A stretch of 64,000 bases of DNA from Xiphophorus maculatus (Eukaryota > Chordata > Actinopteri > Cyprinodontiformes > Poeciliidae), in NCBI RefSeq assembly GCF_002775205.1, contig NC_036461.1, positions 16,774,015 through 16,838,014 on the forward strand. The letters are read 5' to 3'. The notes under the pieces were generated by a model that did no database searches, was not told where the DNA came from, and worked only from the letters and a program-made list of their open reading frames with translations. The position numbers and the translations under genes are program-made. Each line of letters begins with the position of its first letter. Positions within the stretch are counted from its first letter, which is position 1. Shown here piece by piece: positions 901 through 57,356 of the stretch.

Positions 901-9003
<8,103 letters not shown>

Positions 9004-10625: not shown

Positions 10626-11524
10626 AGGTAATGGACCCTTTTGTTAATCGTGAATAGACTGTAGTTACCCACATTTTATGAGAAACTGAGTTTAACCTCA
10701 GACTATCAAAATGAAGAAAATTAACAACAGGTATAGTCAGGATGATTTGCTGCTCAAGGAAAGTGTCCAACTAACAATTTATGACCGTAACCCATGCATA
10801 TCTTATTTAAGCAGTTGGACGATAATCTGAAACACACAAGCATATGAACCTTTAAACAGCTCGACAAAAAGTAAGATAAAAGCTCTGGTGTCCTATTTAA
10901 AGCATCTCCATCCTGTTCACGTCCTGTGATGAGACATTATGCAGTTTGTTCATGCATGAAACTTGACTGGATTAAAAGAATTCAAAGAAATTAAAAAAAT
11001 TCAAAGAATTACGAATTGCTTCGTGGCAACTGGTGCCCTCCAGGTCGGCCCAAACAAGTTGTTACTTTTCCACATATTCTCAGGTTGTTTTAGATCATTT
11101 ATTTTCTCTTGATAAATTAAATTATGATTTGAAAATACATTTTACATTTACACAACTTGTATTTGGTCTGTATTAAAATTTGTTTGTTGATAAAGTGTAA
11201 CAAAAAAGCAAAAGCAATGAATTTGTTAGGGAGGCACATATCTTTCCCTCTCAACGTACTTTACAAGACAAACAGGTTCTACACGAAACCAATTTGGTTC
11301 AAGTTCAGTTCAAATCAATGCAGCACTTTCCATCACTTCATCAAATCAGTATTAATTATCAAACAATGCAATCAGATTAATAGAAAACTCTCTTAATACT
11401 AAGCCCACTGCAAAAAAACCCCAAATAACTGCAGCAATCTTTCATCTCGACTAAGCATTTGGCAACGATGGACATAATTTATGAGCTACACTTTTCTTTT
11501 TCAACTGCTTCTTAACATAAATAT

Positions 11525-11830
11525 GTCAGCCGATCACATGGCAGCAACTTAATACATTTAGGTATCTAGATGTATCAGAATAGGAAGATAAATTACGTTT
11601 GTTCCTCATGGGTTCATCTGAGTATTTTAGAAACTGCTGATTGTTATCCAGAACCGTTTCCATGGTTTACAGAGAATGGTCCAAAAAAGAAAAGATACAA
11701 TATCATGTGGTCAATAGGCCTCATTGATGTTAGAGGTCAAGGGAGAACGGACTGATGTGTTTGGGGTGATAAAAAGGCGACACTGGCTCAACGAACCACT
11801 TGTTACAGCTAACATATATTTTTACTGTTG
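11525..11830 (+). mobile_element. remnant of a second Tc1-like family
   Basis: Reads CACATGGCAGCAACTTAATA, GAGTATTTTAGAAACTGCTG, GTTTACAGAGAATGGTCCAA, GTTAGAGGTCAAGGGAGAAC, AAAAGGCGACACTGGCTCAA and CCACTTGTTACA in order. That is the 5' half of another abundant teleost Tc1-like transposase gene. Dead copy; the 3' half is absent. Confidence 0.75.
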
Positions 11831-12899
11831 TATTTGTTAATGTTATTGTTTACTTTTTCACTCTCAGACTGTATTTGAGCCTAGTTTTAGAGAAATGATA
11901 TAACTAAAGTTCAAATTTCACAAATTTAGACTGTGAATGTCATAATGCCAGATGCAAAATTTATTTGATCAAATAAATTATCATAAGTTCTTGATTTATT
12001 TCCGCCCACAAAAAAGGGACATTCCTCACACATTTAGGTAAAAATAATCTGCATTCTCCATACTGACGCATGTTCCAAGTTAGCTTCACACAAGTTTACT
12101 GCAGGTCACCGGAGACCGAGTGTTTGATACTGCATCTGCTGAGGGAGGAGAGATTCCTCCCTCCTCCTGTGCCAATGAGCTCAGCCTCCTCAGCTGACCT
12201 CTGCTTTAGCCACATAATATTTTCTGCGTATCTCCAGCCAGCGGTGTTTATGTTTCTTAAAACAGTTTTGGTTTTCTTAGTTTTATTTTTGCATAGCTGT
12301 ACTTATGTTGCTTTCAGTGGCGTGGAATTTGACCCATTAAGTCATGTGTGTCCCATATTTAGAAATGAAGAAATATTATGTACTAATATTAAAAGCATGT
12401 TTTTAATACCTTTACAATGTGGTATGACATTGGCTTTTTTTCATTTTCTGCTGATAAAATATCTTTGCACTTTATTGTCTACATGTTGTCATCTAAGAGG
12501 ATAAATATGTAACCATGGTTAGGAATTAAGATAATAATGGTATTCAATTAAAGAAATAAATATACATATGTGTATATATATAATTTATCACCTTCCAGCC
12601 ACCAGGTGTTTTGGTGGCGTTGGACATTTGACAGAAGACTTGGTACCTGGACAAAACAGGAAGTAAGGGAAGGACAATCCCTACACAAACAGATGCCTGA
12701 TATAAAATGTCTTGTGGTGGAAAACAACAGCAACAAGCTTAAAAATCATTGGTTATTGAATTAGGCCCTCACTAAGTGGTAATTTACACTCAAAAAGAAG
12801 TGTGCATGTCTCCTCAAATATTATATAAAACATGTCTGCTACAGAGTTGCAACGTTATATTAAGATAAATCCACCAAGTTGTTGTTGACTCCAGATTTG

Positions 12900-13520
12900 G
12901 AGAAGACAGTTTGCTGTTGATTTTAGCTGTAGCCAATCGGGGTTCCCCATCCAGCCAGCTGGTCTGACCTTGCGCCCCCCACAAGTGCCAAAAAAGGGTT
13001 TGACGGAGCAGCTGGTGAGCAGAGCTCCAGCTAAGAATAACCTGGACTTTCTGGGATGGAGGGAAAGGGATAAAGTTATCCTGAAGTTATCAGGTCCCTT
13101 TGCTGACCAATACCCATGTGAGGCACCAATAGCACTGGGTGGGATCCTCTGCTTGTTCCTCTCCGCCCCATCCAGACCCTTGCTTTGCTTCGCTCCTTCC
13201 TCCCTTGCTCTGCTGGTCCCCCAATACCCTTTTAGCTGCCACACAGGCAGCTCCAAATTTCCCTTTAAACTTTCTTTTTTTTTCCCCTATAAGTATTTAT
13301 TTGATTTTATTTACCACTTTCTTCTGTTTTTCCTCGTCACAACGGAAGACTGGAGGATGAAACATCAACACGTGGAAATGGAATAATTTACTATGAGGGA
13401 CATGGATTTTATTTTTTTTAAATTAATAAGTCATCTTGGATTGGATATACTGAAGTTATCCCCAGGCGGTTCTAAATGAGGAGGCTTGGTTTATATCTCT
13501 GAGATAGTCTCCACGTCACC
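12900..13520 (+). promoter_or_regulatory. trdn: likely trdn promoter and 5' leader
   Basis: The 600 bases before the first triadin ATG are more GC-rich than the flanks. An E-box CAGCTG lies near 13009, and a TATA-like CTATAAGTATTT near 13289 would place a start about 30 bases downstream. A CTATAAATAC piece resembling a MEF2 site lies in the first intron near 13650. Triadin is muscle-specific in other vertebrates, which fits, but the assignment is inference. Confidence 0.4.
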
Positions 13521-16500
13521 ATGGCTGAAGGTAGGATTGTTTCACCTGCTCTCACCAGCCTTAACGCACAAACAATATTTGCCATATTAATACATAAATA
13601 ATGTTTCGATGAGCAACTTGCTCAGTGGAGTAAGTGTTGAAAATGGTTGCTATAAATACTGGATATCATGTTGCAGGAGAATTAGCATTGCTCTCATGTG
13701 ACGGACATGACTTGTGCTGCTGACTTCAGGTTTTAAAAACTGTGGAGGAAAAAAACTTCACCTGTTCTGATTAAAATTGTTTGGCTTCATCTACAACACA
13801 TAATAAAACACTTAATATTATAGTTTTTCTGTAGATTCTTAGCTGAATTGACTGAATTCATATATATATATATGAATATATACACACACACAATATGTGT
13901 CAAATTACAGCTACAAACTGCAATCTATTGTATTGGGACAAACAGTGCAGTGTTAAGATTTAACAATATAAATTGTTAATAAATGTTTTTTTATAAGCAA
14001 GAATCTGGCAAGTGTGATCTGCACTTGTTTTCAACCCCTTTTAGACTGATACCCCTAAATACAATCTCCACAAAGCTGGCCTTTATGGAAGAGTGGCAGC
14101 AGAAAGTTCTGTTTGTAGTTTGGCAAAATCATGTAGGAGACACAGGGACGATGCAAGAGAAGGGGCTCAGGTCATATAAAACATGGTGGTGTTAGCTTTA
14201 TACTGTGGTGATGCTTTTCTTTAGTATGGGTGGAGATGCGGTCAAAGTTGCAGGTTGATGGAGCAAATCAGGTTCATTCTGGAAGAAAACCTTTTAGAGG
14301 TTTTCAGAAAACTTAAGACTGGTCCTTCCTGCAGCACAACAGTCATAAACATACAACCAGAGCTATAGGTTTAGATCTAAGCCTGTGTTGAAATGGACCA
14401 AAGTTTAGACACAAATGTAAGTAAGAACTTATGGCAAGCTCAACGACACTCTATGTCCAATCTGGCCAGTGTTGGGTTTACTTACATACATAGAAAAAAT
14501 TTGTAGAAAAATGTGCAGTTTCAGTTTATAGATGTGCAAAGCTAGCGGAGACACACTTCAAAAAACCTGCAGCTGTAATTACAACAAAAGGTGGCTCCAC
14601 AAACTATTAACACAGATGGGCTGAATGCAAATACCTGCAACAGCTCTCAAAAGTTTATTTGAGCAAGGTTTTGAAAACGATTTAATTTAATGTTCCAGTA
14701 ATATGCACATATAGAATTCAAAGAAATAGTATTGATGGCTGTGATTGTAATGTGACAAAGAGTCAAAAGAAATGAACATTTTAGCAAAGCACTGTCTCAG
14801 TATTACACCGACAACAGCATAGAGCAGCACAACATTGCAGCTCCTATGTTTGTGATGCAGAAGGGCTCCATTACCAACAACTGTTCTTCATTTCAGTGAA
14901 CCAGGACGACTAACTTAGTACCAAAACAGGTAGAACTGGTTAAGTGTATTTTTTATTTAATTGTATTAATTTATTTTTTACTTAATTTGTTTCTGTTGTT
15001 TTTGGCACTGTTGCATTTGACATAGAGTTTCAAAAATAGGATTGAGAGTATTAACACTGGTCAAAGTTCACAAACAGGTGAATAAGTTGCATATAAATGT
15101 TGAGGGAACCATGGCATCAGTCATTTGTGACCTCATCAAACATCCCAGATTAATCTGTTTTTTCAATTATCTAATATTATTTCAGTGCCACTTTCTGGTG
15201 TCTACTAGGTTTGTTGAGAAATGTGTGTTATATTTTATCTTAGTCAGATTAGGGGCATGTATTCTGAGACTAAATGATTTTTTAATTATTATTATTTTTA
15301 TGGTCAGATAAATTGCATCCAGATTTTCCAAAACATCTAGTATTTAATAACCAGAAGGTTTCAGTGCCCCCTGGTGGAAAGAACTATGTAATTAAACCTC
15401 ATCGCATTAGAATTTATAAAGCAACCGCTTGCTGCTCAATCATTCAAGCATCACTCTTGTGTATCCCACCCACAGGAGCCAAATCCCCCTCGGCGAGTGC
15501 AGCCGGGGGCTCCAGCAGAGCAGCACAGACAAGCTCTCTCAAATCAAAAGCTTTGGAGGTCGTCAGAAAGGTGAAAGTGTCTGTGGAGCTGCTGATCGCC
15601 CTGGCTGCTCTCCTGTCCTGGGTGGTAGTAGGTGTGGTGATGTTTGACTTTGTCGAATACAAAGCAGTACCAGGTGAGTCACAAACGCCTTGGAGTGTGT
15701 TTGCTTAAATTGTAAAGATTTCGGAATGTTTTTGTTTTCATTTCTATTTTCCCCAGATGTACGCCAAATCATTACGGACCCAGTTCAAGCTGTAAACGAT
15801 GCTGCAGACGAGGTGTCCAGTCTGCTAAATAAGTTCCAAGGTACGCCTTATTGTAAAGTGCAACATGACTGCATGTTAATATGTCAGTCAAGAACTGAAA
15901 TGGCTTTGCGTTTTTTTTTCCAGAATGTGCTCCTGATTTAAGTAGCCCCTCGTCTGCTGCGTCTTACGCTGCTGAAGAGGTTATAGAAGCAAAAGATGCA
16001 TTTGTTCGATACTTTTCAGATGAAGAAGGTATGCCAATGCACCTGTAGTCAACAAAACAAATTAAATGAAATGTAATTCTAACATAATGTGCCTGTACCT
16101 ACATCACAGGAACCTTTTATCCAAGCTACATCGATCCCGTGGTCATTGGAAGAAGAGCTTTCCACTCAACCAATGACTTTGTGTATGGAGTGGTTGGCTC
16201 CTTCAGGGATTCACTGTGTGCTACTGTGGATACTGTAACGGATGCAGTTTTGGATACAAGAAAAGGTGTGTGTTCTGGTGTCTGATTATACTGTAATTAA
16301 ATAAAACATAATCAGTCTTTCGAAATTCTTGCAACAACAGCCTACTTGAACTAATTGTGGAAATGTTTCTCCCAAATCCTTTGTCTTCTCCTCAGGAAAA
16401 CTTGATCTCAGCTACATTGACCCTGTGATAATTGGCAGAGGGTTCTTCAGTGTTATTAATAACTTTGTTTCCGAAGTGGGGGCCTTCATTCAGAATTTGC

Positions 16501-19500
16501 TCTGCCTCCTAGTGGACTCCACATTGGATGTAGTGAAAGGTACCATCTGAGAACAGCTGTGGTCATGTTGGAAAAATTAGGGCGCCCTATAACAAACCTG
16601 TTACTTATTAATAAAACATTATTTTAAGAAGTACAGTTTATGGTTAGGAATTTATTATGACACCCCAGGACACGATTAGAAAATTGTTACTCAGCATTTT
16701 GAAATATATATATATTTAAACGTTAGATGTTTAATCTCATGTGTCCTCCTGATTGCCAAAAGACAACAGACAAGTTTATCCTGAGAGCAAACTGCAAGAT
16801 GCTTAAAGAAGCCTATAAAATGCCATCACTTTTCCTACAGCAGGGCAAGGAGGAAATACTTTCTCTGTAAGAAACCATGTTTGGACACCAAAACAGACCA
16901 CATGTTTGACATTAACAAAATGCAGTTCACCATCATAGGATTCTCCCTTAGGCTGTATCTAAACTAAAACTGGAGCAGAACTGAAACCTGCAACATGACA
17001 ATGATCCATGGCATTAAATTAAATACAGGATTAAACATTAAGAAGTCAGACATTTCTTAATAATGAACTGAATATTTTACGCGCTTTCCTGATTCTTCAC
17101 ATGACTGTATCTCACATAGTTTGCATTGCCCACTACACTGTGAAATGGGATTTTCTTTTAATACTACGTTTGTGTCTTCAGGAACCACTGACATTAGCTT
17201 CATCGATCCTGTGGTATTTGGCAGGACATTTTTCAATGTTATAAATGACACTGTTGGTGGAATAACGGGCTACGTCCAGGACATACTGTGTGCCATCTTA
17301 GACACCATATTGGATGTATCTAAAGGTACTACATCTAATTTCCTTTTTGCCTATTGTGCAAGACTCAAATTAGCTCAAACGATGTGAAAAATCAAAATTA
17401 AAAAAATGTTAGTTCAATTTATTTCTATAGTGCACATAAAATGTAATCTCGAGGCTTTTTATTACCTTATCTATTTAAACCAGTTGTACTAAATTCTCTT
17501 TTACATGAGTAAATGGAGTACAGATCGCTGACTTTAAAATTAGATGTCTATTTCATTCAACTAAAACGTGATGAGCTGTTCTGCAAAGCATAGTTGTGCA
17601 TTTTAAGAAGCACAGTAAAAAAAAAACTGTCCTTTTTCCTGGTCTCTTGATTCCCTTCAGTACAACTTTTTCATCTACAAATATACAAATATATGTAAAA
17701 CTAAAAATCTTTTATGATGTCACTTGACTGAAGTTTGTCTTAACTTTGTCTTGTTCTTCTCAGGAACAATAGACATCAGCTACGCCGACCCCGTGGTCCT
17801 GGGCAGGAAATTCTTCAATACCATTAATGATGCTGTGAATGGAATAGTGGGCTGCATTCAGGACATACTTTGTGCTTTATTAGACATCATATTAGACATC
17901 TCTAAGGGTGAGGCCTTCCTATTTTCCTGTTTGTTTTGTGCCAATTGTAACTACAAAATAATAATTTATGTTTTATCAAAGTCGTTTTTTCTGTTTCCTT
18001 TTCTTTCAAAATGCAAATACATGATTACGTCACGTCTTAATGGTAGGATGTCAGTCTGAAATAAACTTAAACTTAGAAAATGTATTTTATTTCATTTTAT
18101 TTAACGCTTTTCACGCAGTTTAATAAAGCCAGTTTTTTCTGTAAATGCTGGTAAAAGCTAAAATACGTTGAATTTGAGATTATGCTTAAGGTATTATTTT
18201 TATCAGCTAACCTTGATGGCAGTAGCATTGTTCTAATTATTGCCTCCACAACGACATAAATGCATAATAATAAGTATTATACTTTTATTGCTCTTCACAG
18301 GAACCATTGACATCAGCTTTATTGACCCTGTGGTGATCGGCAGAAATATCTTCCCTATTCTTGATGAATTTGTGAATAACATCACAGGACACGTCCAGAA
18401 TGTGCTTTGTGTGATCTTGGATGTGGTACTGGACACAGTGAAAGGTACAATGCCACCTAGATTTATTACCTTATATCTAAATTTCACATTCCATTAAACG
18501 CTCTTGTTCCATTTTTATGTATTTATTTTCATCAGACCTCCAAGAGGCTGTGGGATTCAGGCCCTTATCAGCTCTTCAGACAACAGCAGAAATCATTAAA
18601 GAACATATCAACATTGTTATGAGCTACCTCTCTACAACGCTGATAGGTGAACAAGGTGAGTCATAATTTATATCCCATAACATAATGCGTTCAGAGAGCA
18701 TTTCTGCACATTTAGTGCATCCTTCACACAAAAACATGTTCCGGTTCTTCCAGCGATCATTCCGGAAGTTTCCGTTGACCCGATGAAAGTTGTTGAGGAT
18801 GCGGTACTGGAATTTACCGACAAGAAGGATTTGTTCTTGGGCTACATGTCAAGTATGCTTGGTGGTGATCAAGGTGGGGGTATTAGCAATTACAGTGAAT
18901 CACAAAATATTTTGCTACTCTGAAATCTGATCACTATTAATTTATCTGATTTTAGGTGAACCTGTCAGTCCTCCGGCTGTAAATGTTGTCACTGAAAAAG
19001 GTTTGGATTTTTGATCTCACAAGTTGTCAGAATATAGTTGTTACACATTTTGATATGATACGATACGATACGATACGATGAATTACAATGCAATACGATA
19101 CAATCAAAACTTTAGAGCCTATTACAATTATATGTGGTGTGGAAAGCTCAAAACCAAAAATCTCTGCTCCTCTTTGTTTAGATGAAGCTGTTGTTTCTCC
19201 ATCTGATATCACTCTGGTGAGAAAGAAAGGTGAGCAGCACAATAATTTCCCTGCATGTTGCTGCAAAAAGACCTTAATGCTTGACTCTAAAAACAGCCAT
19301 ATCCTCTTGTTGTAGGGGAGTTTCTACCTCCACCTGAAAAAGGTGAGAAAAAGTCTCCATGCTGTGAACAAATGATTGTATTATTTTTTTTAATATGAGC
19401 AGGTGTGTTGCAAACAAATAAACTGAATAGATTGGTAGAATGGTTTCTCTACAGATTTACTAAAGACCTCTCTTGCATGTTGATGTCGATCGTGTTTGTT

Positions 19501-22500
19501 TATTTTTTACCACTATTAACCGGGTTGATGATGTGGTCTTTGTTATTGACTGAGTTAATGTTTATTCCACATACCAGTCTTAAATCATTGCAAACGGTTT
19601 GTTGGTGTACGTCTTGTACCTGTCCTGGCATGACTGAATATGCATCATTATGTTTGTCATAATAAATATGTTAAACAACACTGACTTCGTTTTCTGTTAC
19701 CACAATTTGTTGTAACCTTTCACAAAACTACATGATTTTTGTTTTGGTTGTTATGACTACGATTATCTTGTGTTGATCCTTAAAGAACAATGTCTTTGTA
19801 TGAATACGTACGGGAACCTAAAAGAATTTATTAATATTGCATTTTTCTGTGTCCTGCATTTTCTGTGTGACTAAATGTAAACTTTATCTCAGCTATTTAT
19901 AGAAACATACTTGTACAATAGGAATGGAAATATTTGAAGACATACACAGTTTTCAACGCTCTTTTTCACCTAGTTGAAACAAATTTTACCATCAAACAGA
20001 GTTGGCTTGGGTCAACACTAAATGCAGTTTTTTAATGATGAGTATAGGGACTAAAGCTGCTTAAAGCAATCTGATCAGGTGTGGCAAATAAATCCACATT
20101 GAAATGTTATAGCTGGTTGGGCCAACATGGCTTTTATGTTATTGTGCAGAAATTTTGATCCAGTTTTCCAGAAAGTGTTTGTAATTCCCTTGAGCATGAA
20201 CGGCCTGTTTAAGATTATGCCACAGCATTTCGGTTGCATTTAAGTGCAGACTTGGGCCAGATCACTTAAAGTCTTCATTTTGTTTTAGTTTCCTAAAAGG
20301 CCTTTATGTTCTTTTTGGTCAGCAGTGGTTTTGGCCTTGAAATTTTCCCATAGAGAGGTCAGAGTTCCCCACATGAACTCTGACCTTAACTGAGGCAAGT
20401 ATGAACAGCGAAAAAATGTAAACAATTTCAGTAGTTTTTTTAAAGCTGCATTTTGTATTTACCCAGGTTATTTTAGATCAGAACAAAAAATTTTTGTAGA
20501 TTCAAGTTCAGTTGGGAGGTTGTCCATGTACAGAGGTTAAAAAGGTTAAATATTTTTTATCTAAAATAAATATGAACAGTGCCCAAATATTTCCATACTT
20601 AACTCTACTGTAAATATTTGAGTTATATTAACTGGATTTTTTTGTGGATGAGTGTTTGATTTGAGCTGTGCATCTATTAAAAAAAAGGTCTCTACTATCA
20701 TCTTGGGTATTTCTGCTATTTCCACACTTTTGATCTGCACCCTAAAGACTATTTTATCTTCATGTAAATTAACAAAGATGTGGACATGGGCTTAATAGTG
20801 ATTACAAAAGTCCCTGCTACAGTTGCAGAGATGATGCGTGCCGCCGAAGATGAAGCTGCCTCTGCTGCAGAGGAGGCTGAGGCTGAAGAGGCCGCTGGAG
20901 CTGCCGATGAAGCAGGAGTGACCAAAGCAGAGGAAGATGAGGGTATTCAGACGTTTATTTGGTCACTTATTCACCAAACTGAAGAACAATCACTAAATTT
21001 GATGCTATCACTCTATTAGTGAAACAAACCGAAGACATCCAACTTGAGACTTTGCTGAAAGAGCAAATCATAGATGTTGGAATTGAGGAGGAAACAACGG
21101 TAGAGGAAGAAAAGACGGCGGATGAGGTTAAACCAAAGGAAGATCCAGAACAACTGGCACATGAGGAAAAACCTGAGGTGGAAGACAAGACTTTAAAAAC
21201 AGGACCAGAACAAGAGGAGGGAGAAGTTAAAATAGAAGACATCTTGCTAGAAGAAGAAGAAGAGGAGACGCCAACAACAGAGGGAGAGTTAGAAGAACAG
21301 GAGGAGGAGGAAAAAACAAAAATTGAAGCAACAGTAGAAGATAAAGGCGAGGAAGGAGAGGAGGAACCTGAAACTTTTGAGGTTTTGGTAGAGAGAAAGG
21401 AAGAGACTGAGGAGAAGGAAGAATTAGGAGAAATAAAAACTGAAGGCAGGGAACAAGATCAGGAGGAAAAGGAGGACTCCACAGCTGAAGAGAAACTGAT
21501 TGACAGTGAGGGGGAAGACGACAAAGCACAGTATGAAGCTGGTGATGAAGATTTGGAAAAACAGTCATTAGCTCGACAACCAGAACTTCTGCTTTCCAAA
21601 ACTCCTGTTAATGACTCTGGTGTATCCGAGTCAGGCGAACAGGAAGAGGAAAAAGTAGGAACATCTCCTGATTACAAAAACGAAGATTATGCAGAACTAA
21701 AGCATGACCACGATGAAAATAATAACAGCGAGAGCAAAAAGGCAAAACCTGAAGAAAAGAGGAAGACTCATGTTCCCTTTGAGAGGATGAAGAAAGCTGA
21801 CTACAAAGTATCACCAAAAGAACCCGCTGGCCAATATGAGACAGGTATTATCATCACAAATACTTGGTTTTTCTTTCTACTTATATTATCAAAAATGTTT
21901 GACGTGATAAATGTCTGTGGTTTTGTTGATTGTTTCTATTTTGCCGCCATATTTCAATGGTTTATTGATTGTTCTTCAACAATACATCATAATGTGACCA
22001 AGGCCCAACAGTGACAAATGAGCCTCATTGCAATTTATGTTTTTGTGTATGTTTTGGCAAAGCAGTATGGATGTGAGGTCTTGTGGCTTGGCTAAAAATC
22101 TCAAAACATGTGTTATGATCTGTAAAAACCAAATTTAAAGTTTTGGGCCACAAGGCCAAAAGGTACATGACGTGACACAAAAAATAGAGTACTACCAAAC
22201 AGAACACCAGAGAAACTTGGTGGTGGCAGCATTATGATCTTTAATTCATATGGAACTAGGGATGAAAATCTCTAGTTAAATTTGATTTATGCATCCAAAG
22301 GTCTGTGCAATTAAGACACGATGTTATCCTGACCCATTTATGTCAGTTTTGTCAAAAATAATTGACAAAAAGTCCAGAAAATGATTGAGAGAGGTTTGGG
22401 GAAGAATAAAAAAACTTTTGATCCATGTCATGCAAGATCAAAAGCAAATTGTAAACAGAATATATGCAAATTTCTCAATTAGAAGAAAGGAAATGATAAC

Positions 22501-25500
22501 ATATACATGAAAAAAGTTATAATTTCAAAAAATCTTAACTGACCTAAAGCAGTAAAAGTATAGTTTGATTTAAAGGAAATACCAGAAAATTGGAAAAAGG
22601 AAAAAATAAAGTATCAGTATCAGGCATGCACTGTTTTTTATTTGATATTTAAATCATTTATGTAGAACCTTAAATACTAAAAGCTATAATTAAATAATAA
22701 ATGATCTGATTATTTTAGAACACAAGGAAAAAGAAAGGGAAACTACTACTACCGCAGAAGACAAGCAAATTCTGAAAGAACAAATACAAGTACAAATACA
22801 TACAGAAGAAAAGAAATCTCACACAGAAGAAATAAAGGTCAAGACAACGCCAAAAGAAGAAATAAAAGCAGAGAAGCCTCCCAAAGAGGAAACAAAAGTC
22901 GAAAAGCCTCCAAAGGAAAAGGTAAAGGCAGAGAAGCCTCCCAAAGAAGAAACAAAAGTCGAGAAACGTCCCAAAGAAAAAATTGAAATTGAAAAACCTC
23001 CAAAGGAAAAATCAGAAGTCGGGAAACCTCAAAAAGAAAAACTAAAAGTCGATAAGCCTCCAAAGGAAAAAGTAAAGGAGGAGAAGCCTCCCAAAGAAAA
23101 GATAAAAGTAGAGAAGCCACCAAAAGAAAAACCAAAAGTCAAGAAACCTCCAAAGGAAAAAGTAAAGGAGGAGAAACCTCCTAAAGAAAAGGTAAAAGTT
23201 GAGAAACCTCCTAAAGAAGAAAGAAAAGTCAGGAAACCTCCAAAAGAAAAACTAAAAGTGGAAAAGCCTCCAAAAGAAAAGTCAAAAGTCGAGAAACCTC
23301 CTAAAGAAGAAACAAAAGCTGAGAAACCTTTGAAAGAAAAAATAAAAGTCGAAAAGCCTCACAAAGAAAAGGCAAAAGTTGAGAAACCTCCAAAAGAGGA
23401 AACAAAAGTTGAGAAACTTCCCAAAGACAAAATTGAAGTCGAGAAACCTCCAAAGGAAAAATCAGAAGTCGGGAAACCTGAAAAAGAAAAACTAAAAGTT
23501 GATAAGCCTCCAAAGGAAAAAGTAAAGAAGGAGAAGCCTCCCAAACAGAAGGTAAAAGTCGAGAAACCTCCGAAAGAAGAAACAAAGGTTGAGAAACCTC
23601 CAGAGGAAAAAGTAAAAGTTGAGAAACCCCCAAAAGAAAAACTAAAAGTCGAGAAACCTCTAAGAGAAAGAGTAAAGGCGGAGAAGGCTCTCAAAGAAAA
23701 AGTAAAAGTTGAGAAACCTCCCAAAGAAAAAGTAAAAGTGGAGGAGCCTCCCAAAACAGAAACAAAAGTTGAGAAACCTCCAGAGGAAAAAGTAAAAGTT
23801 GAGAAACCTCCTAAAGAAGAAACAAAAGTTGAGAAACTTCCAGAGGAAAAAGTAAAAGTTGAGAAACCTCCAAAAGAAAAACTAAAAGTCGAGAAACCTC
23901 TCGTAGAAGAAACAAAAGTTGAGAAACTTCGGAAAGAGGGAATAAAAGTCGAGAAACCTCTAAGAGAAAGAGTAAAGGCAGAGAAGGCTCTCAAAGAAAA
24001 AGTAAAAGTGGAGGAGCCTCCCAAAAAACAAACAAAAGTCGAGAAACCTCTTGAGGAAAAAGTAAAAGTCGAGAAAGCTCCCAAAGAAGAAACAAAAGTT
24101 GAGAAAACTCCTAAAGAAATACTAAAAGTTGAGAAACCTCCAGAGGAAAAAGTAAAAGTCGAGAGAACTCCTAAAAAAGAAACAAAAGTCGAGAAAGCTC
24201 CAAAAGAAAAGGAAAAAGTCGAGAAACCTCCTAAGGAAAAAGTAAAAGTTGAGAAACCTCGAAAAGAAAAAGTAAAAGTTGAGAAACCTCCCAAAGAAGA
24301 AACAAAAGTTGAGAAAGCTCCCAAAGAAAAAACAAAAGTCGAAAAACCTCCAAAAGAAAAGGAAAAAGTCGAGAAACCTCCTAAAGAAGAAACAAAAGTC
24401 GAGAAACCTCCAAAAGAAAAACTAAAAGTCGAGAAACCTCCTAAAGTAGAAACAAAAGTCGAGAAACCTCCTAAAAAAGAAACAATAGTCGAGAAACCTC
24501 CAAAAGAAAAACTAAAGGTCGAGAAACCTCCAGAGGAAAAAGTAAAAGTCGAGAAACCTCCTAAAGAAGAAACAATAGTCGAGAAACCTCCAAAAGAAAA
24601 ACTAAAAGTCGAGAAACCTCCTAAAGAAGAAACAAAAGTCGAGAAACCTCCAAAAGAAAAACTAAAAGTCGAGAAACCTCCTAAAGAAGAAACAATAGTC
24701 GAGAAACCTCCAGACGAAAAAGGAAAAGTCGAGAAACCTCCTGAAGAAGAAACAAAAGTCGAGAAACCTCCAGAGGAAAAAGTGAAACTCGAGAAACCTC
24801 CAAAAGAAAAACTAAAGTTCGAGAAACCTCCAGAGGAAAAAGTAAAAGTTGAGAAACCCCGAAAAGAAAAAGTAAAAGTTGAGAAACCTCCAAAAGAAAT
24901 ACTAAAAGTCGAGAAACCTCCAAAAGAAAAACTAAAAGTCGAGAAACCTCCAGAGGAAAAAGTAAAAGTCGAGAAACCTCCAGAGGAAAAGGTAAAAGTT
25001 GAGAAACCTCCAAAAGAAAAACTAAAAGTCGAGAAACCTCCAGAGGAAAAAGTAAAAGTTGAGAAACCTCCAAAAGAAAAAGTAAAAGTTGAGAAACCTC
25101 CCAAAGAAAAACAAAAAGTCGAGAAACCTCCAGAGGAAAAAGTAAAAGTCGAGAAACCTCCTAAAGAAGAAACAATAGTCGAGAAACCTCCAAAAGAAAA
25201 ACTAAAAGTCGAGAAACCTCCTAAAGAAGAAACAATAGTCGAGAAACCTCCAGACGAAAAAGGAAAAGTCGAGAAACCTCCTGAAGAAGAAACAAAAGTC
25301 GAGAAACCTCCAGAGGAAAAAGTGAAACTCGAGAAACCTCCAAAAGAAAAACTAAAGTTCGAGAAACCTCCAGAGGAAAAAGTAAAAGTTGAGAAACCCC
25401 GAAAAGAAAAAGTAAAAGTTGAGAAACCTCCAAAAGAAAAACTAAAAGTCGAGAAACCTCCAGAGGAAAAAGTAAAAGTTGAGAGAACTCAAAAAGAAAA

Positions 25501-28500
25501 ACTAAAAGTCGAGAAACCTCCAAAAGAAGAAACAAAGGTCGAGAAACCTCCTAAGGAAAAAGTAAAAGTTGAGAAACCGCGAAAAGAAAAAGTAAAAGTT
25601 GAGAAACCTCCAAAAGAAAAACTAAAAGTCGAGAAACCTCCCAAAGAAGAAACAAAAGTCGAGAAACCTCCAGAGGAAAAACTAAAAGTCGAGAAACCTC
25701 CTAAAGAAGAAACAAAGGTCGAGAAACCTCCTAAGGAAAAAGTAAAAGTTCAGAAACCCCGAAAAGAAAAAGTTAAAGTTGAGAAACCTCCAAAAGAAAA
25801 ACTAAAAGTCGAGAAACCTCCAAAAGAAAAACTAAAAGTCGAGAAACCTCCCAAAGAAGAAACAAAAGTCGAGAAACCTCCAGAGGAAAAAGTAAAAGTC
25901 GAGAAACCTCCAAAAGAAAAACTAAAAGTCGAGAAACCTCCAGAGGAAAAAGTAAAAGTTGAGAAACCTCCAAAAGAAAAACTAAAAGTCGAGAAACCTC
26001 CCAAAGAAGAAACAAAAGTCGAGAAACCTCCAGAGGAAAAGGTAAAAGTTGAGAAACCTCCAAAAGAAAAACTAAAAGTCGAGAAACCTCCAGAGGAAAA
26101 AGTAAAAGTCGAGAAACCTCCCAAAGAAGAAACAAAAGTCGAGAAACCTCCAGAGGAAAAAGGAAAAGTCAAGAAACCTCCAAAAGAAAAACTAAAAGTC
26201 GAGAAACCTCCAGAGGAAAAAGTAAAAGTCGAGAAACCTCCAGAGGAAAAGGTAAAAGTTGAGAAACCTCCAAAAGAAAAACTAAAAGTCGAGAAACCTC
26301 CAGAGGAAAAAGTAAAAGTTGAGAAACCTCCAAAAGAAAAAGTAAAAGTTGAGAAACCTCCCAAAGAAAAACAAAAAGTCGAGAAACCTCCAGAGGAAAA
26401 GGTAAAAGTTGAGAAACCTCCAAAAGAAAAACTAAAAGTCGAGAAACCTCCAGAGGAAAAAGTAAAAGTCGAGAAACCTCCAGAGGAAAAACTAAAAGTC
26501 GAGAAACCTCCTAAAGAAGAAACAAAAGTCGAGAAAACTACAAAAGAAAAACTAAAAGTCGAGAAACCTCCAGAGGAAAAAGTAAAAGTTGAGAAGCCTC
26601 CAAAAGAAAAACTAAAAGCCGAGAAAACTCCGAAAGAGGAAACTAAACTCGAGAAACATCCCAAAGAAAAGGCAAAAGTTGAGAAACTACCAAAAGATGA
26701 AACAAAATTCGAGAAACCTCCCTCAGAAAAAATAGAAGTCGAGAAACCTCCAAAGGAAAAAGTAAAGGCAGAAAAGCCTCGCAAAGAAAAAACAGAAGTC
26801 AAGGAAGCTCCGAAAGAGGAAACAAAAGTTGAGAAACATCCAAAAGAAAAACTAAAAGTCAAGAAACCTCCAGAGGAAAAAGTAAAACTTGAGAAACCTC
26901 CAAAGGAAAAAGTAAAAGTCGAGAAACCTCCCAAAGAAGAAACAAAAGTCGAGAAACTTCCGAAAGAGGAAATAAAAGTCGAGAAACCTCCAAAAGAAGA
27001 ACCAAAAGTCGAGAAACCTCCAGAGGAAAAAGTAAAAGTCGAGAAACCTCTAAAAGAAGAAACAAAAGTCGAGAAACCTCCAGAGGAAAAAGTAAAAGTC
27101 GAGAAATCTCCAAAAGAAAAACAAAAAATCGAGAAACCTCCAAGAAAAATAGTAAAGGCGGAGAAGCCTCCAAAAGACGAAACAAAAGTAGAGAAACCTC
27201 CCAAAGAAACCATGAAAGTCGAGAAACCTCCCAAAGAAAAAGTAAAAGTTGAGAAACCTCCAAAAGAAAAACTAACAGTCGAGAAACTTCCGAAACAGGA
27301 AACAATAGTTGAGAAACCTCCAAAAGAAACAGTAAAAGCAGAGAAAACTCCGAAAGAGGAAACTAAACTCGAGAAACATCCCTCAGAAAAAATAGAAGTC
27401 GAGAAACCTCCAAAGGAAAAAGTAAAGGCAGAGAAGCCTCCCAAAGAAAAAACAGAAGTCAAGGAAGCTCCGAAAGAGGAAACAAAAGTTGAGAAACTTC
27501 CAAAGGCAAAAGTAAAGGCAGAGAAGCCTCCCAAAGAAAAGGCAAAAGTCGAGAAACCTCCAAAAGAAGAAACAAAAGTCGAAAAATTTCCAAAAGAAAA
27601 AGTAAAGGTGGAGAAGCCTCCCAAAGAAAAAACAGAAGTCAAGAAACCTCCAAAAGAAGAAACAAAGGTTGAAAAACTTCCGAAAGAGGAAACAAAAGTC
27701 AAGAAACCTCCCAAAGAAAAAATTGAAGTCGAGAAACCTCCCAAAGAAATAGTAAAGGCAGCAAAACCTCCCAAAGAAAAGGTCAAAGTCGGGAAACCTC
27801 CCAAAGAAGAAACAAAAGTTGAGAAACCTCCAAAGGAAAAACTAAAAGTCGAGAAACCTCCAAAGGCAAAAGTAAAGATGGAGAAACTTCCCAAAGAAAA
27901 ACTAAAGGTCGAGAAACCTCTAAAGGAGGAAACAAAAGTCAAGAAACTTCCGAAAGAGGAAACAAAAGTCGAAAAGCGTCCCAAAGAAACAATAAAAGTT
28001 GAGACGCCTCCAAAAGAAGAAACAAAACTTGAGAAGCCTCCAAAGGAAAAAGTAAAGGCGGAGAAGCCTCCCAAAGAAAAAACAGGAGTGAAGAAACCTC
28101 CGAAAGAGGAATCAAAAGTCGAGAAACCTCCCAAAGAAAAGGTAAAAGTCGAGAAACCTCCAATAGAAAAGAAAGAAAAGAAACTTGTCAGAGAAGAAAT
28201 GAAGGTTGAAAAAGCACCAAAAGAAGAAAAAAAGGCAGAGAAACCTCCAAAAGAAAAGGAAGAAAAGAAACCTGCCAAAGAAGAAATAAAAGTGGAGAAA
28301 CTGCCCAAAGAAAAGAAACATGTCAAAGAAAAACAGAAGGTTGAGAAACCACCAAAAGAAAAGGAAGAAAAGAAACCTGTCAAAGAAGAAACAAAGGTCA
28401 AGAAACCTCCCAAAGAAAAGCTAGGTGTTGAGAAACCTATCAAGGATAAGATAGAAGAAAAGAAACTTTCAGCAGAAGGAAAATCTGAACAGAAACGCCA

Positions 28501-31500
28501 AACAGCAAAAATAGGAGTAAAGAAACCTAAAGAAGGTAAGAACAAAAGGAAATTTCTAATAAACTAACCCTAACTAAGTTAGCTTTCAAGTGTTTCAGGA
28601 ACCCAGATTCATGGATTCCATCAAACCCTCTTCATAGTCATATGCACTCTGCTTGGATATGGTTTAGCATTTCAGTGATCATCATCAATGGTGTCAGTGT
28701 GATATATATGCACAAGATCAGATTTCTGAATGTCTCTATGGTCTACACAAGCTTCATAAGTTGGTGAGAAGGAAATTCTCATATATTAAAGAAGTACAAC
28801 AGGATTGAAAATTTCAGAAAGATTAAGAACTGAACTAAGAGACAAGAAGCCAAGAAACATAGGAAATAAGAAATATGGAAGTGAGGAATTAAGGCGAGGG
28901 CTGCATTTTTTTCCTTCCAAGCGATGATATGACTGGTCATTTACCTCTTTGTTCTAGATATTAAGCCCAAAAGAACAATCAAGCGGGAGTTTCCAACTGT
29001 CCTCAGGAAGCAACATCTTAATGTGACAAAACCCGGTGAGGCAATGTGCAACATTTCTGTATACATATTTAATGTGTGTTTTATAAAAGATACAATTCAC
29101 AAAAAGCTCTTAATATAAAAATGCAAGTAAAATACAGAGGTGCTGAAAATGCTCAATTTTAAGTAAGTCTTTTTTTATTATTATTCCAAAACACTGTTTT
29201 ATGTAATCCATGTATAGATTTTTAAGAAACTTGCGAAATAAATTTGAGTCCACTTTAATTTTCTCTTTACCTTTTCACCTGAGAAACTAAAGCAACCTTT
29301 GTGAAGGAAGGGAAAAATCACTGTATATATACAGAGGCCAATTTTACAACTCAGCTGAGTTTATTTTTAGAATTTTAATGTTACAATTTGTTTTGTTGAG
29401 TACAATAAAAATGTGTTTGTGGGGAATGGTGTTATTCCTCTAGTTGATATGCAACTAGAGGGATATCAAGTATTAATTTCAGTACCTGAAACTTGTACGT
29501 AGATTTGTATATGTTTGTTTGGGTTGCTGAAATCACAATGTTTTTACACAGAAACCACTCCAATCAAGACCAAAAAGGTGGCAGTTGTGAAAAGTAAGAG
29601 TCACATTCACATTTAGATGAGCTGATAAAGTAGTTTTCAGTTTTAATAACCTTTTGTTGTCTCTCAAAGAGCTCGAAATCCCAGACAAAAACGTCTCCTT
29701 AACAAAGACGAAAGTAGTAAAGGCAGCGCTGCTACGAAAAGGTACGTGTTTACAGTTATTCTTGTCATGTGGTAGCGTGTGTTGATGGGCCCAAAATGCG
29801 GGTAGATTTTGGTGATATAATGAAAGAAAATGAAGAACAAAAAACTTACAGCTATCACAGGAAACCAAGGGAGCCAAAGAAGAACAAAAAACATACATCC
29901 TAAAAGGATGGCAGGGAATTGACAGAAAAACAATGGCATGAAACAGGAGGAACCAGCAAGAAGTGAGAGGAGAAAGGGTTATAGGAACTGGGAGAGTGAA
30001 TGCTGGAACGATGGACCTGGGCTGACTAGCTTACCGACTGCAGGTATGAGGGGAGAGACAGAAAGTGGCACATGGGGCGAGGGAGCATACACAGGACTAG
30101 GAAGTGAATCCGACAGTAAACCAAAACTAAACATAGGGAACATTATTAAACTATAGTAACTAAGAATAATTCGACACAAGAAGTAAACACAATAAAGTAA
30201 AATCATTAAAGAAGGACTGAACTAAAGAAAATCAAAAATTGAGAAGCCTGTCAGGAGAGAACAGTTGCTGAAAGTTTCAATAAATCCAAACCAGGAAGTA
30301 AAATCCTTGTTTTTGTTGCAGTTCCTGAGGCTCCAAAAGAAACAGCCAAGCCTTCAAAAGTCAAAAAAGGTAATGTAGTGGCTGAAGCTGTAGTTAGTTG
30401 TTTTTTTTTTTTTCTTGCGTCAGAAACCTGGTCTGAAATATGTTTTATTTGCTTCAGTTGTTGAGGTTCTTAAGGAGAAGATTGAACCTATCACTCAGAA
30501 AAAAGGTTTGTTTTTCAAGTTATCCACAGTTTTCTCTTTTTGATTCATCTCGAGATATGTTGTTTGTGTTTGTGTTATACTAATATCTTGTTCATTTTAC
30601 GAAATATTTATTACATCAATATGAATGTTCTTTCCATTTTTAGATTTTTACAGTTTTGTATGTAATTGAGTTCTACATCTGACTTGTGATTTTTATTCCT
30701 GTGTATTAATTTATCCGTGTTTCAGCAGCTGTTATTAAGGCAAAACCAGCACCTGCTGAAAAGAAGAAAGGTAGGGAGATGCAGTGGTTTATTTGTTGCA
30801 TCATTATTATTTTATTTAGTAAAATTGTAGTGAAAGTAGTTGATTGATGACAGTATCATTTATTGCCACACATTACAATAGTGACTTTGCTACCTATATT
30901 TTAGTCAGGAAATAATTGATGCTGAAATAATAAACACTTTTAATGTGAAGGAAGGCAAATTAAAAAATGACAAATTAAATTAAATTAAATTGATTCCTCA
31001 GAATGAGATTTGAAGCTGTTGGCTACAAAGGTAAATATTGTTTACAATGCTTTTGGCCTGAGGGTTTTAATTATTGCCACTTTTATTTACTTGCTGTCAT
31101 AAATCTGTCTAAATCCGTCTAAATACCTATTTGGGAGGATTTGTGTTAACAGCAAGAAGCTACACTTCAAAGAAGAGCTTTTGGAGAAAGCTAGAAAAAC
31201 GAGTTATGGTTTATAATTTCGAGAATTTTGAGCTTTTATTATATAAAAAGCCTTCGATCTAACATATTGATGCAAACACTGTTTTTCAGAGAAAACTGTC
31301 CCGAAGCAGACGGTAAAGGATAAAGCTAAAGGTAAAGATTGAAAACATTTTTGTTGCCAACACTGTTTTACTACAGTATGCAAGATTCTTATTCAAAGAA
31401 AAAAAAATACCGAAATACTTTACATGAAATAATTATGCAATACTTGTAAACAATTATGAGTTGAATATGTTTTAATTTGCAGAAGACAGAGTTCTTAAAG

Positions 31501-31939
31501 AGAGACAGGAGCCGGCAAAGAAAGGTACAGATTTAAACCAATATTCTTCTGGAGTTCATATCAGTGTGGCTTCATTTATTTATGTAGAAAACTGTTGTTC
31601 TAGAAAAACCTGCTGAGAAGGCTGCCAGAGACGAGAAGGTTGAAGGTACTGAATAGTTTCTGTAACTTTTGGTATTGTGATTTGAGTTTGAGTTAACAAT
31701 ATGCCGTCTTGTTAACAGAACAACTTTTGGACAGCTTTCCCATGGATGGTAAGCACAAATTCCCTCTTAGTGAATAAAATATACACAACGGTTTAAACTG
31801 AAAAATAATTTTAAAAGAAAATAAAGAAAACTGGCTGGTATGTTTCTCTCCAGACGACCTGCCGTACTTCCAGTGTTTCTTCCTGGACGAGGACGAGGCT
31901 CAGTTTCCATTTTATGCCTTCTCACCTCTACACATTTAA
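13521..31939 (+). CDS. trdn: Triadin, complete, greatly enlarged
   Basis: Single-pass junctional sarcoplasmic reticulum protein linking calsequestrin to the ryanodine receptor. Coding exons: 13521-13530, 15476-15673, 15757-15840, 15924-16028, 16110-16265, 16396-16539, 17182-17325, 17764-17907, 18301-18444, 18536-18655, 18754-18873, 18956-19000, 19182-19229, 19316-19342, 20829-20942, 21020-21844, 22728-28535, 28958-29035, 29552-29593, 29670-29741, 30322-30369, 30458-30505, 30726-30770, 31290-31331, 31483-31524, 31604-31645, 31719-31748, 31854-31939. These sum to 8811 bases, 2936 residues. The order is a cytosolic N-terminus, a membrane segment ending WVVVGVVMFDFVEYK (human triadin WSAVAIVMFDLVDYK), duplicated luminal modules, Glu-rich and Lys-rich tails, and the conserved end with YFQCFFL (human FFQCVYL) followed by QFPFYAFSP. 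All introns are phase 1. The giant exon's acceptor is uncertain by eight bases (22720 or 22728); phase favours 22728. Human triadin is about 730 residues, so this is about four times larger. Junctin/aspartyl hydroxylase was considered, but the C-terminus is triadin's. Confidence 0.92.
13858..13895. repeat. TA/CA microsatellite
   Basis: (TA)n runs into GAATATATA and then (CA)n in trdn intron 1. Short and imperfect. Confidence 0.8.
14055..14660 (+). mobile_element. Tc1-like transposon remnant, 3' two thirds
   Basis: In trdn intron 1. Recognisable pieces in order: GGCCTTTATGGAAGAGTGGC, GTTTGGCAAAATCATGTAGG, AAAACATGGTGGTGTTAGC, GGTGATGCTTTTCTTTAG, GGAAGAAAACCTTTTAGAGG, AACTTAAGACTGGTCC, ATACAACCAGAGCTATAGG, AGATGTGCAAAGCTAGCGGA, GCAGCTGTAATTACAACAAA and ATGGGCTGAATGCAAAT. 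The transposase frame is broken throughout. This is the best-preserved copy of this family in the window. Confidence 0.85.
16110..18444 (+). repeat. trdn: five tandem duplicated luminal exons of trdn
   Basis: Exons 16110-16265, 16396-16539, 17182-17325, 17764-17907 and 18301-18444 encode related modules of 48-52 residues. They share a core such as DISFIDPVVIGR, then FF.(V/T)IND.V..I, then VQDILC..LD..LDV.K, and the last four are each exactly 144 bases. Each begins and ends in phase 1. The three right-hand copies are closest to one another. The Asp-Pro followed about eight residues later by a hydrophobic helix resembles the single human luminal block with SDPLKLVRDAM, so they look like duplications of that block. 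Exons at 18536 and 18754 are shorter and more diverged; the second keeps SVDPMKVVEDAV. Confidence 0.85.
17410..17465 (+). repeat. fragment of a common fish repeat (TTCAATTTATTTCTATAG)
   Basis: GTTCAATTTATTTCTATAGT followed by GCACATAAAATG and CTCGAGGC resembles the widespread fish repeat with TTCAATTTATTTATATAGCG and TCTCAAGGC. Very short. Confidence 0.5.
19050..19105. repeat. ATACG pentamer microsatellite
   Basis: GATACGATACGATACGATAC with flanking variants, in the trdn intron just before the exon at 19182. Confidence 0.85.
19661..19666 (+). terminator. trdn: possible intronic poly(A) signal in trdn
   Basis: AATAAA lies 319 bases into the 1.5-kb intron after the exon ending at 19342. A possible acceptor CTCTACAG just before 19455 would give a short terminal exon that stops after about ten codons. 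Mammalian triadin does make short isoforms by alternative 3' ends. Here the use of this site is only a guess. Confidence 0.25.
20090..20420 (-). mobile_element. Tc1-like remnant, antisense
   Basis: In the trdn intron 19343-20828. GCATTTCGGTTGCATTTAAG, CAGACTTGGGCCAGATCACT, GTCTTCATTTTGTTTTAG, CAGCAGTGGTTTTGGCCTTG, then AGAGGTCAGAGTTCCC and TCTGACCTTAACTGAGGCAA follow, in antisense, a third abundant fish Tc1-like family. Dead copy. Confidence 0.65.
21020..21844 (+). other. trdn: Glu-rich luminal exon of trdn
   Basis: A single 825-base exon coding for 275 residues dominated by Glu and Asp, with short runs such as LEEEEEETPTTEGELEEQEE. It continues the acidic bias of the preceding exon (20829-20942, Ala/Glu-rich). 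It turns basic near its end (ERMKKADYKVSPKEP), just before the Lys-rich giant exon. It may act as a low-affinity calcium-holding segment; that is inference from composition only. Confidence 0.75.
22020..22480 (+). mobile_element. probable decayed DNA transposon
   Basis: In the trdn intron before the giant exon. AACTTGGTGGTGGCAGCATT and phrases such as CCCATTTATGTCAG recall fish Tc1-like copies. The match is too worn to assign family or limits with confidence. Confidence 0.4.
22728..28535 (+). other. trdn: 5.8-kb giant exon of trdn
   Basis: One uninterrupted open exon of 5808 bases (1936 codons), apart from the unrelated 45 codons or so at its start and a looser Lys/Glu tail after 28160. The donor is AAAGAAG|GTAAGAAC at 28535/28536. 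The acceptor TTATTTTAG ends at 22719, but the phase left by the previous exon (one base) fits an AG ending at 22727, so the start is good to about eight bases. If the donor were ignored, the frame would stop at 28567. The encoded tail extends the KEKE-type calsequestrin-binding region known in mammalian triadin. Confidence 0.85.
22862..28160 (+). repeat. trdn: 30-bp coding minisatellite, ~176 units
   Basis: A strict 30-base period coding for decapeptides of the type KVEKPPKEKL, with KEET, EEKV and KEKV variants at the end. The register does not drift from 22862 to about 28160: the same phrase, AAAGTCGAGAAACCTCC, recurs at constant 30-base steps. Any length changes have therefore been whole units. 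Units average about four Lys to two or three Glu and carry a Pro-Pro pair. Units at both ends are more diverged than those in the middle (about 24400-26600), the usual sign of turnover in the core of an array. Confidence 0.95.
28536..31853 (+). other. trdn: trdn 3' introns with small Lys-rich exons
   Basis: Ten small exons of 30-78 bases, nearly all of 42-48 bases, are scattered through 2.8 kb (28958-31748), as in the tail of mammalian triadin. Each codes for a short Lys-rich segment in phase 1. The introns between them are AT-rich. The 30 exonic bases at 31719-31748 (EQLLDSFPMD) lead into the conserved terminal exon. I see no repeat family in these introns. Confidence 0.6.
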
Positions 31940-56886: not shown

Positions 56887-57356
56887 GTTGAATTGGGCTT
56901 TTATTTCCGCAGTTTTCTCCCAAGTTGTGCAGCGATTACGCTCCCAGTAAAAGCCCCGTGTTAGCGCTCCAGAGTGCACTCTTGCTATCTCATCTTAGTC
57001 TTCCCGAGCTCCCGGTTGATAATTGTCGGACTGACTCGAAAATAAGATGAATTCACGGGGCTAAACATCGCGACCAGGCCCTGGTGTGAACTCTGTGGGG
57101 TTTCTGGTTGACTAAATCAATCGCGGTTTTGATAAGCCCAGCGAAAAGCAATATCTCAGTCTGTGTCACAGCAACTATTCATAAAAAATACAAATAAAAA
57201 AAAAAAAATCACAGCACCGATTTAACCAAACAGAAAAATACACACTAAACTTAAATTTTACTCAAAATGACTTCGAAACCGAGCTCTTTCTTCCACTGTC
57301 AGTCTTAAAACAGAAAACAGGCGAAACGTAAATAGAAACACCATAGTCGAACTGTA

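Follow-up and report, generated by a model that had tools for sequence, protein, structure and literature searches.

In mammals, triadin (Trisk 95 and the cardiac form) is a protein of about 730 residues with a short N-terminus, a transmembrane (TM) segment carrying MFD..[DE]YK, a luminal DP module and a C-terminal FQC motif. As I read the field, it is unsettled how triadin holds calsequestrin, and whether its luminal tail acts as a tether, a spring or a multivalent scaffold. In the mouse, triadin is described as the main component of periodic membrane-calsequestrin anchors of 4.3 nm, and its loss leads to considerably smaller cisternae (available text of PMC3388061). Here I describe a 64,000-nucleotide stretch of the Xiphophorus maculatus genome, hereafter the window (C19:16774015-16838014 of an assembly of 704,300,149 bases in 101 contigs; positions without a contig name are those of the window). 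It appears, from sequence comparison, to contain an extra, strongly diverged and fast-diverging triadin-type gene, which shares the short N-terminus, the TM segment, the DP segment and the FQC motif with mammalian triadin and contains a giant exon that encodes an array of decapeptides.

The giant exon (22719-28535, plus strand) measures 5,817 bp or 1,939 codons, is free of stops and is symmetric (phase 1-1), within a stop-to-stop open reading frame at 22694-28567 (plus strand). Its acceptor side reads tgattattttag/AAC and its donor side AAG/gtaagaac. Between 22865 and 28174, 177 units of exactly 30 bp follow each other in a single register without any indel, each unit encoding a KVEKPPKEKx-like decapeptide, and the final 360 bp or so of the exon are irregular. 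A first-pass annotation of the same DNA was right in seeing a single open exon of about 5.8 kb and a strict 30-base period, but it placed the start of the exon nine bases late, at 22728, and counted about 176 repeats. The units show a mean identity of 0.864 to their consensus and fall into 120 different DNA sequences, which encode 90 different peptides, with KVEKPPEEKV (23 times), KVEKPPKEET (20) and KVEKPPKEKL (18) as the commonest. Tandem Repeats Finder reports the array at period 60 (22825-28314, 79% matches, 0% indels), at periods 90 and 150, likewise with 0% indels, and at period 30 (23081-28174, 71% matches, 10% indels). All 50 listed matches of a 46-residue repeat probe in the 704-Mb assembly fall inside the giant exon, such match counts being lower bounds.

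When compared with Pfam, the giant exon exceeds the cut-off for Extensin_1 (PF02095, 509 bits, E 3.1e-154), so that an automatic pipeline could label the array protein as a plant cell-wall protein. I dismissed homology with extensins as compositional, the gene context being triadin-like; titin and neurofilament, also considered as identities, were rejected in the absence of supporting context. Long antisense open frames are also present (23359-28563, minus strand, 709 and 937 aa), which seem to follow from the repeat being in frame, and an antisense gene across the array was rejected, as the best reverse frame holds five stops.

The peptide encoded by the array shows signs of purifying selection. 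There are no stops in the sense frame of the giant exon, while the other five frames hold 131, 85, 46, 48 and 5, and 1,158 of the 1,939 codons sit one substitution from a stop. Single-base codon variants of the consensus are present for 18 of 18 synonymous and 41 of 66 nonsynonymous possibilities, and for none of the six that create a stop. The ratio of nonsynonymous to synonymous changes is 0.25 over all units, 0.23 over the 120 distinct units and 0.24 over the 102 outer units, and amounts to 0.15 at codons 1-6 and 8 of the unit. In simulations that treat the units as independent and therefore overstate the number of events, as units share a history, so that the tests are indicative and not exact, placing the 721 observed differences at random on a consensus array produced 41 stops on average and never fewer than 25 (300 runs, 0 observed), and the neutral expectation of the ratio for the 102 outer units had a mean of 0.85 and a minimum of 0.57 (200 simulations).

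The units are not equally diverged. In units 60-119 (24665-26464), the nearest unit differs by 0.07-0.20 mismatches, compared to 0.67-2.58 in the remaining blocks; exact repeats extend to 263 bp, the next longest to 229 bp, and the ten-unit block at 24605-24904 reappears at 25145-25444 with two mismatches. This pattern suggests that unequal exchange or duplication is ongoing in the middle of the array and that its edges are older, and the homogenised centre makes it likely that the repeat number is polymorphic. As repeats commonly suffer from assembly errors, a false expansion was considered as the source of the array length, but I rejected this as highly improbable: the window is without any N, 96.7% of the 201-mers in the giant exon occur once, the edge units are diverged and distinct, and 704 Mb in just 101 contigs suggests a long-read assembly. 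The two central exact repeats of 263 and 229 bp could nevertheless be miscounted by a few units.

The assignment to the triadin type rests on comparison with a typed human triadin sequence, and with two further triadin-type TM exons in this genome, at C15:14460774 (A) and C15:2882344 (B), with z scores derived from 1000 shuffles. Along the window, the human query matches first a TM exon and luminal exons of DP type, then acidic exons and the array, and finally a YFQC exon. The TM exon (15476-15673), with MFD..[DE]YK and a short N-terminal side, resembles that of human triadin (z 10.2), B (z 10.3) and A (z 11.7), with 0 of 1000 shuffles as good. Four exons, starting at 15757, 16110, 17764 and 18754, resemble the luminal DP(L/M/V)K.V.DA segment and score z 5.0-7.9 to human (0 of 1000 shuffles), and the exon at 31854-31939 ends the gene with YFQC, the [FY]FQC of triadins (z 8.8 against B and 5.5 against human, no shuffle out of 1000 being as good). 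In the window model, as in human triadin, the lumen is encoded by a succession of small, symmetric exons in phase 1.

Several observations speak against this assignment. The TM exon resembles that of ASPH on C6 nearly as well (z 9.2), although its scores are somewhat higher with triadins (68-71) than with ASPH (59). An undirected search with the window TM exon reaches B at E 4.4 only, the canonical triadin TM exon as a query reaches the window at E 1.8, and when open frames of the window are compared with those around B, chance-like matches (best E 4e-5) come out ahead of the triadin TM, DP and C-terminal exons (E 0.003-0.007). Of the DP exons, two resemble that of B (z 8.7 and 8.0) and the other two fail to do so (z 1.8 and 1.6), and by plain tblastn the match of the C-terminal exon to human triadin is weak (E 6.7). 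Furthermore, the window is without a match to PF05279 (Asp-B-Hydro_N), while four other loci of the genome are above the cut-off, and the N-terminal model of the window gene matches no Pfam family at E 1. PF05279, an N-terminal profile common to junctin, ASPH and triadin, is not taken here as triadin-defining; triadin B itself clears the cut-off by only 4 bits (27.3 vs. 23).

As A (z 28.7) and B (z 32.2) are far closer to human triadin than the window copy (z 10.2), the latter is best regarded as an additional gene. The triadin identity proposed in the first-pass annotation can therefore be kept as to gene type, but the gene is a diverged extra copy. B (C15:2882261 to about 2899288, exon 1 not sought) is a largely complete triadin gene with the same exon order as in the window, from TM, DP and a 27-bp GEFLPP exon to an acidic exon, lysine-rich mini-exons and YFQC. 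Its single hyperacidic exon (C15:2886449-2888227, 593 codons, net -321) is the opposite of the basic exon in the window, and its basic segments are 12 separate lysine-rich mini-exons of 27-51 bp; the decapeptide array was not found in the 80 kb examined around B. The TM exon of A (C15:14460774-14460908), close to that of human triadin, is preceded in frame by MSGQTRGGEAG.... At the bit threshold used, the following 89 kb or so gave no further triadin exon, and A may be a triadin that is very short or has long introns. A 328-codon open frame at C15:14542468 resembles a Tc1/mariner-type transposase. Two ASPH-type loci are present in the genome, on C6 and C21.

Shared synteny is not apparent, as chance-like matches lead the 40 best rows when the open frames of the window are compared with those in the 80 kb surrounding B. 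A FYN-type SH2 exon lies adjacent to the window gene on C19 and also on C15, 19 Mb from B, and 10 Src-type places match overall. With so weak a signal, deriving the window gene from the teleost genome duplication is no more than plausible. In peptide, mini-exons of B read like the array unit (EKLPKEKSK..., ERPTKEKTK...). An origin of the repeat unit from mini-exons found no support: DNA matches of 14 mini-exons (6 of the 12 in B, 8 in the window) were no better than those of codon shuffles; for the best match, 20 of 500 shuffles were equally good, before correcting for 14 tests.

The giant exon encodes 670 K/R and 473 D/E (net +197), 318 Pro, four aromatics and no Cys, with P, E, V and K making up 85.4% of its residues. 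The positive charge that had been proposed for the repeat exon as a whole is thus found, but two properties that had been ascribed to every unit are not general: a central PP is present in 131 of 177 units, and K exceeds E in 96, equals it in 73 and falls below it in 8. Nor does the exon lengthen a basic tail. The predicted lumen has a net charge of -83 without the giant exon and +114 with it (typed human triadin, +37), so the exon itself supplies the basic charge. Stretched out, the chain would indeed exceed the width of a cisterna, its contour length being 698 nm at 0.36 nm per residue; as a random coil, by generic scaling laws for disordered chains, its radius of gyration (Rg) is only about 13-18 nm. 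The earlier argument from tail length to a mesh or condensate with calsequestrin is therefore not compelling, though such a mesh or condensate may form. Charges in the array are highly mixed (kappa about 0.03, by approximate code of my own), and by established polymer reasoning a polyampholyte with such even mixing is expected to adopt an open coil. The low kappa argues against self-condensation by charge alone, and condensation would need calsequestrin or acidic blocks as its source.

With moderate confidence, and on sequence grounds, I propose that this diverged third triadin-type gene encodes a predicted PEVK-like polyampholyte arm giving multivalent, low-affinity docking to calsequestrin and the ryanodine receptor (RyR). 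The array would present many weak basic docking sites on one flexible luminal chain. Its net-positive decapeptides may dock to calsequestrin, at its acidic tail and surface, and perhaps also to the acidic luminal loop of the RyR. One membrane anchor could then reach and retain more calsequestrin over tens of nanometres, as compared with about 4 nm for the mouse triadin anchors, and splicing of the symmetric exon could switch the luminal charge. Candidate partners are encoded in the same genome: calsequestrin exons are found at four loci, and of the two tails that were read, that at C7:14020486 is long and D/E-rich and that on C24 is milder; RyR pore-loop sequence is found at six loci, with 83-98% identity to the query over 44-48 residues.

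Two properties of the array count against the docking proposal. Although the unit net charge averages +1.04, 80 of the 177 units are neutral or negative. Moreover, the array mostly fails the definition of a KEKE motif, given in the available part of PMC3427183 as more than 12 residues without W, Y, F or P, with over 60% K and E/D and no five like charges consecutively. The reason is the proline, which that definition bars: PP leaves Pro-free runs of mostly 8 (127) or 9 residues (32), runs of zero inside PP aside. Counting the longest one per Pro-free run, there are 13 KEKE motifs in the whole model, of which 8 lie in the giant exon and 4 of these well inside the array. However, disordered triadin peptides bind and activate RyR1, and one of them is just outside the KEKE definition (same part of PMC3427183), so failing the label does not exclude function.

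Alternatively, the array could be an entropic spacer or neutral slack, a replication-prone repeat drifting in length within a tolerant disordered region. It would then need only to remain soluble, open and charged, and would not bind calsequestrin specifically. The centre homogenised by recent duplication (mismatches of 0.07-0.20 vs. 0.67-2.58, exact repeats of up to 263 bp), the 85% of P, E, V and K that resembles the PEVK springs of titin, and the low kappa would all agree with this. I nevertheless hold it to be somewhat unlikely, as the low ratio (0.15) at unit codons 1-6 and 8 suggests that the pattern of K, V, E and P is held beyond generic charge needs. A bolder scenario, which I consider a long shot, starts from the charges of the paralogues: the fish triadin duplicates would have split into oppositely charged giants, B (-321) as a membrane-tethered, calsequestrin-like calcium buffer and the window copy (+197) as a basic polymer, which together with calsequestrin would form, within one junctional cisterna, a heterotypic and calcium-tuned polyelectrolyte complex, in effect a coacervate scaffold with its strength set by repeat number and splicing.

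The docking proposal further depends on inclusion of the giant exon, and here the splice sites are ambiguous. Scored with approximate matrices, the donor is good (6.1) and the acceptor is weak (-4.2), only that at 31604 (-4.5) being lower in the model, and eight AGs inside the giant exon outscore it. These two observations on the acceptor count against routine inclusion of the exon as drawn, which may often be skipped or may have a different boundary. As the exon is symmetric, the frame is kept without it, and splicing could switch between a basic form of 318 kDa (the full model of 2,764 aa) and an acidic form of 92 kDa. It is conceivable that the exon is mostly skipped, that the working product is the acidic 92-kDa isoform and that inclusion is rare or confined to a single muscle type; the acidic remainder (net -83) even points in the same direction as paralogue B. 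I find this unlikely, since there is coding constraint along the array, the flanking introns are short (874 bp upstream, 422 bp downstream), and in the interior of the exon every acceptor scores 0 or less and every donor below 4, next to the good donor at its end. GAAGAA, a classic exon-enhancer-like word, occurs 43 times in the giant exon.

The complete model of the gene consists of 23 coding exons on the plus strand, predicted from genomic sequence. All 21 internal exons are multiples of three and join in frame with phase-1 introns, a regularity that is partly built in, as most of the small exons were sought with phase 1 as a condition; some of these carry weak splice sites. Exon 1 (13521-13530) encodes MAE plus one base, ending in phase 1, and was the sole candidate in a scan of 11500-15476 for short, non-overlapping ATG..GT segments with a donor score above 3. 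As I read them, the morpholinos printed in the available part of PMC8471218 imply an equally tiny first coding exon in zebrafish trdn. Exon 2 (15476-15673), found by tblastn with human triadin (acceptor 5.1, donor 9.1), encodes the N-terminus and the hydrophobic candidate TM segment LLIALAALLSWVVVGVVMFDFVEYK.

It is followed by the DP-module exon at 15757-15840 (z 8.7 to the B DP exon, 6.1 to human), a small luminal exon recognised by splice sites and phase 1 (15924-16028), the DP exon at 16110-16265 (z 7.5 to the human DP segment, 1.8 to B) and its duplicate at 17764-17907 (z 22.7 between the two; 5.0 with human and 1.6 with B). Next come a small luminal exon from the scan for splice sites and phase (18536-18655), the DP exon at 18754-18873 (z 8.0 to B, 7.9 to human) and a further small exon from the same scan (19182-19229). 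Several DP-type exons thus lie within 15757-18873 where human triadin has one segment, and apart from the pair at 16110 and 17764 they are distantly alike. The 27-bp exon GEFLPPPEK (19316-19342) pairs with the B exon GEFLPPRSK, also of 27 bp (C15:2886027-2886053). Two acidic exons precede the array, one at 20829-20942 with a weak donor and provisional boundaries, and one of 825 bp at 21020-21844 (net -62 over 274 scored residues) with weak sites (acceptor -2.5, donor -0.8).

On the 3' side of the array, the first small basic exon (28958-29035) was again found by splice sites and phase. A series of mini-exons follows at 29552-29593 (ETTPIKTKKVAVVK), 29670-29741, 30322-30369 (VPEAPKETAKPSKVKK), 30726-30770, 31290-31331 (EKTVPKQTVKDKAK), 31483-31524 and 31604-31645, the last two with weak sites, and at 31719-31748 (EQLLDSFPMD). 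The last coding exon (31854-31939) encodes DDLPYFQCFFLDEDEAQFPFYAFSPLHI and the stop codon.

Upstream of the triadin-type gene, SH2 exons of a Src-family gene lie at 2629-2733 (Pfam SH2) and 3617-3748 on the plus strand; I take them to be FYN-like. Beside them, the stretches 1-1000 and 3001-4000 are pyrimidine-skewed, with a GC skew of about -0.3 and an AT skew of about -0.35 to -0.40. The downstream neighbours, both on the minus strand, are a ubiquitin carboxyl-terminal hydrolase (UCH) gene at 53485-56991, which I assume to be USP40-like, and an EPTP-domain gene at 59736-63468.

A literature search over titles and the openings of abstracts of the records listed, with most subscription literature and all annotated fish proteomes outside its scope, yielded no repeat-expanded or duplicated fish triadin, and comparable predicted fish proteins may already be in databases. 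A repeat-rich triadin is in itself a variant of a known protein; the striking points are the size, the strict decapeptide and the paralogue of opposite charge. With about 177 units that resemble each other, an exon that is neutral to the frame and a paralogue of opposite charge, the gene provides a natural series in length and charge with which the tether question can be addressed. As the repeat number may vary among individuals, its influence on calcium release could be studied in unmodified fish. A fish 'triadin' is, moreover, not safely assumed to be encoded by a single gene or to be of mammalian size.

Compared to mammalian triadin, the window model is much longer (2,764 aa against about 730) and differs in its several DP modules, its 5.8-kb repeat exon and a lumen that is acidic without this exon (-83 against +37). 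In paralogue B the long exon is hyperacidic and the basic segments are separate, whereas in the window gene the basic array is contained in one exon. Junctin and ASPH have a related TM segment, to which the window gene adds DP modules and a YFQC exon. The match to plant Extensin_1 and proline-rich proteins is taken as compositional convergence. The PEVK region of titin is likewise a disordered polyampholyte dominated by P, E, V and K, but it is an unrelated cytosolic spring, whereas the window gene encodes a strict decapeptide in what is presumed to be a protein of the sarcoplasmic reticulum membrane.

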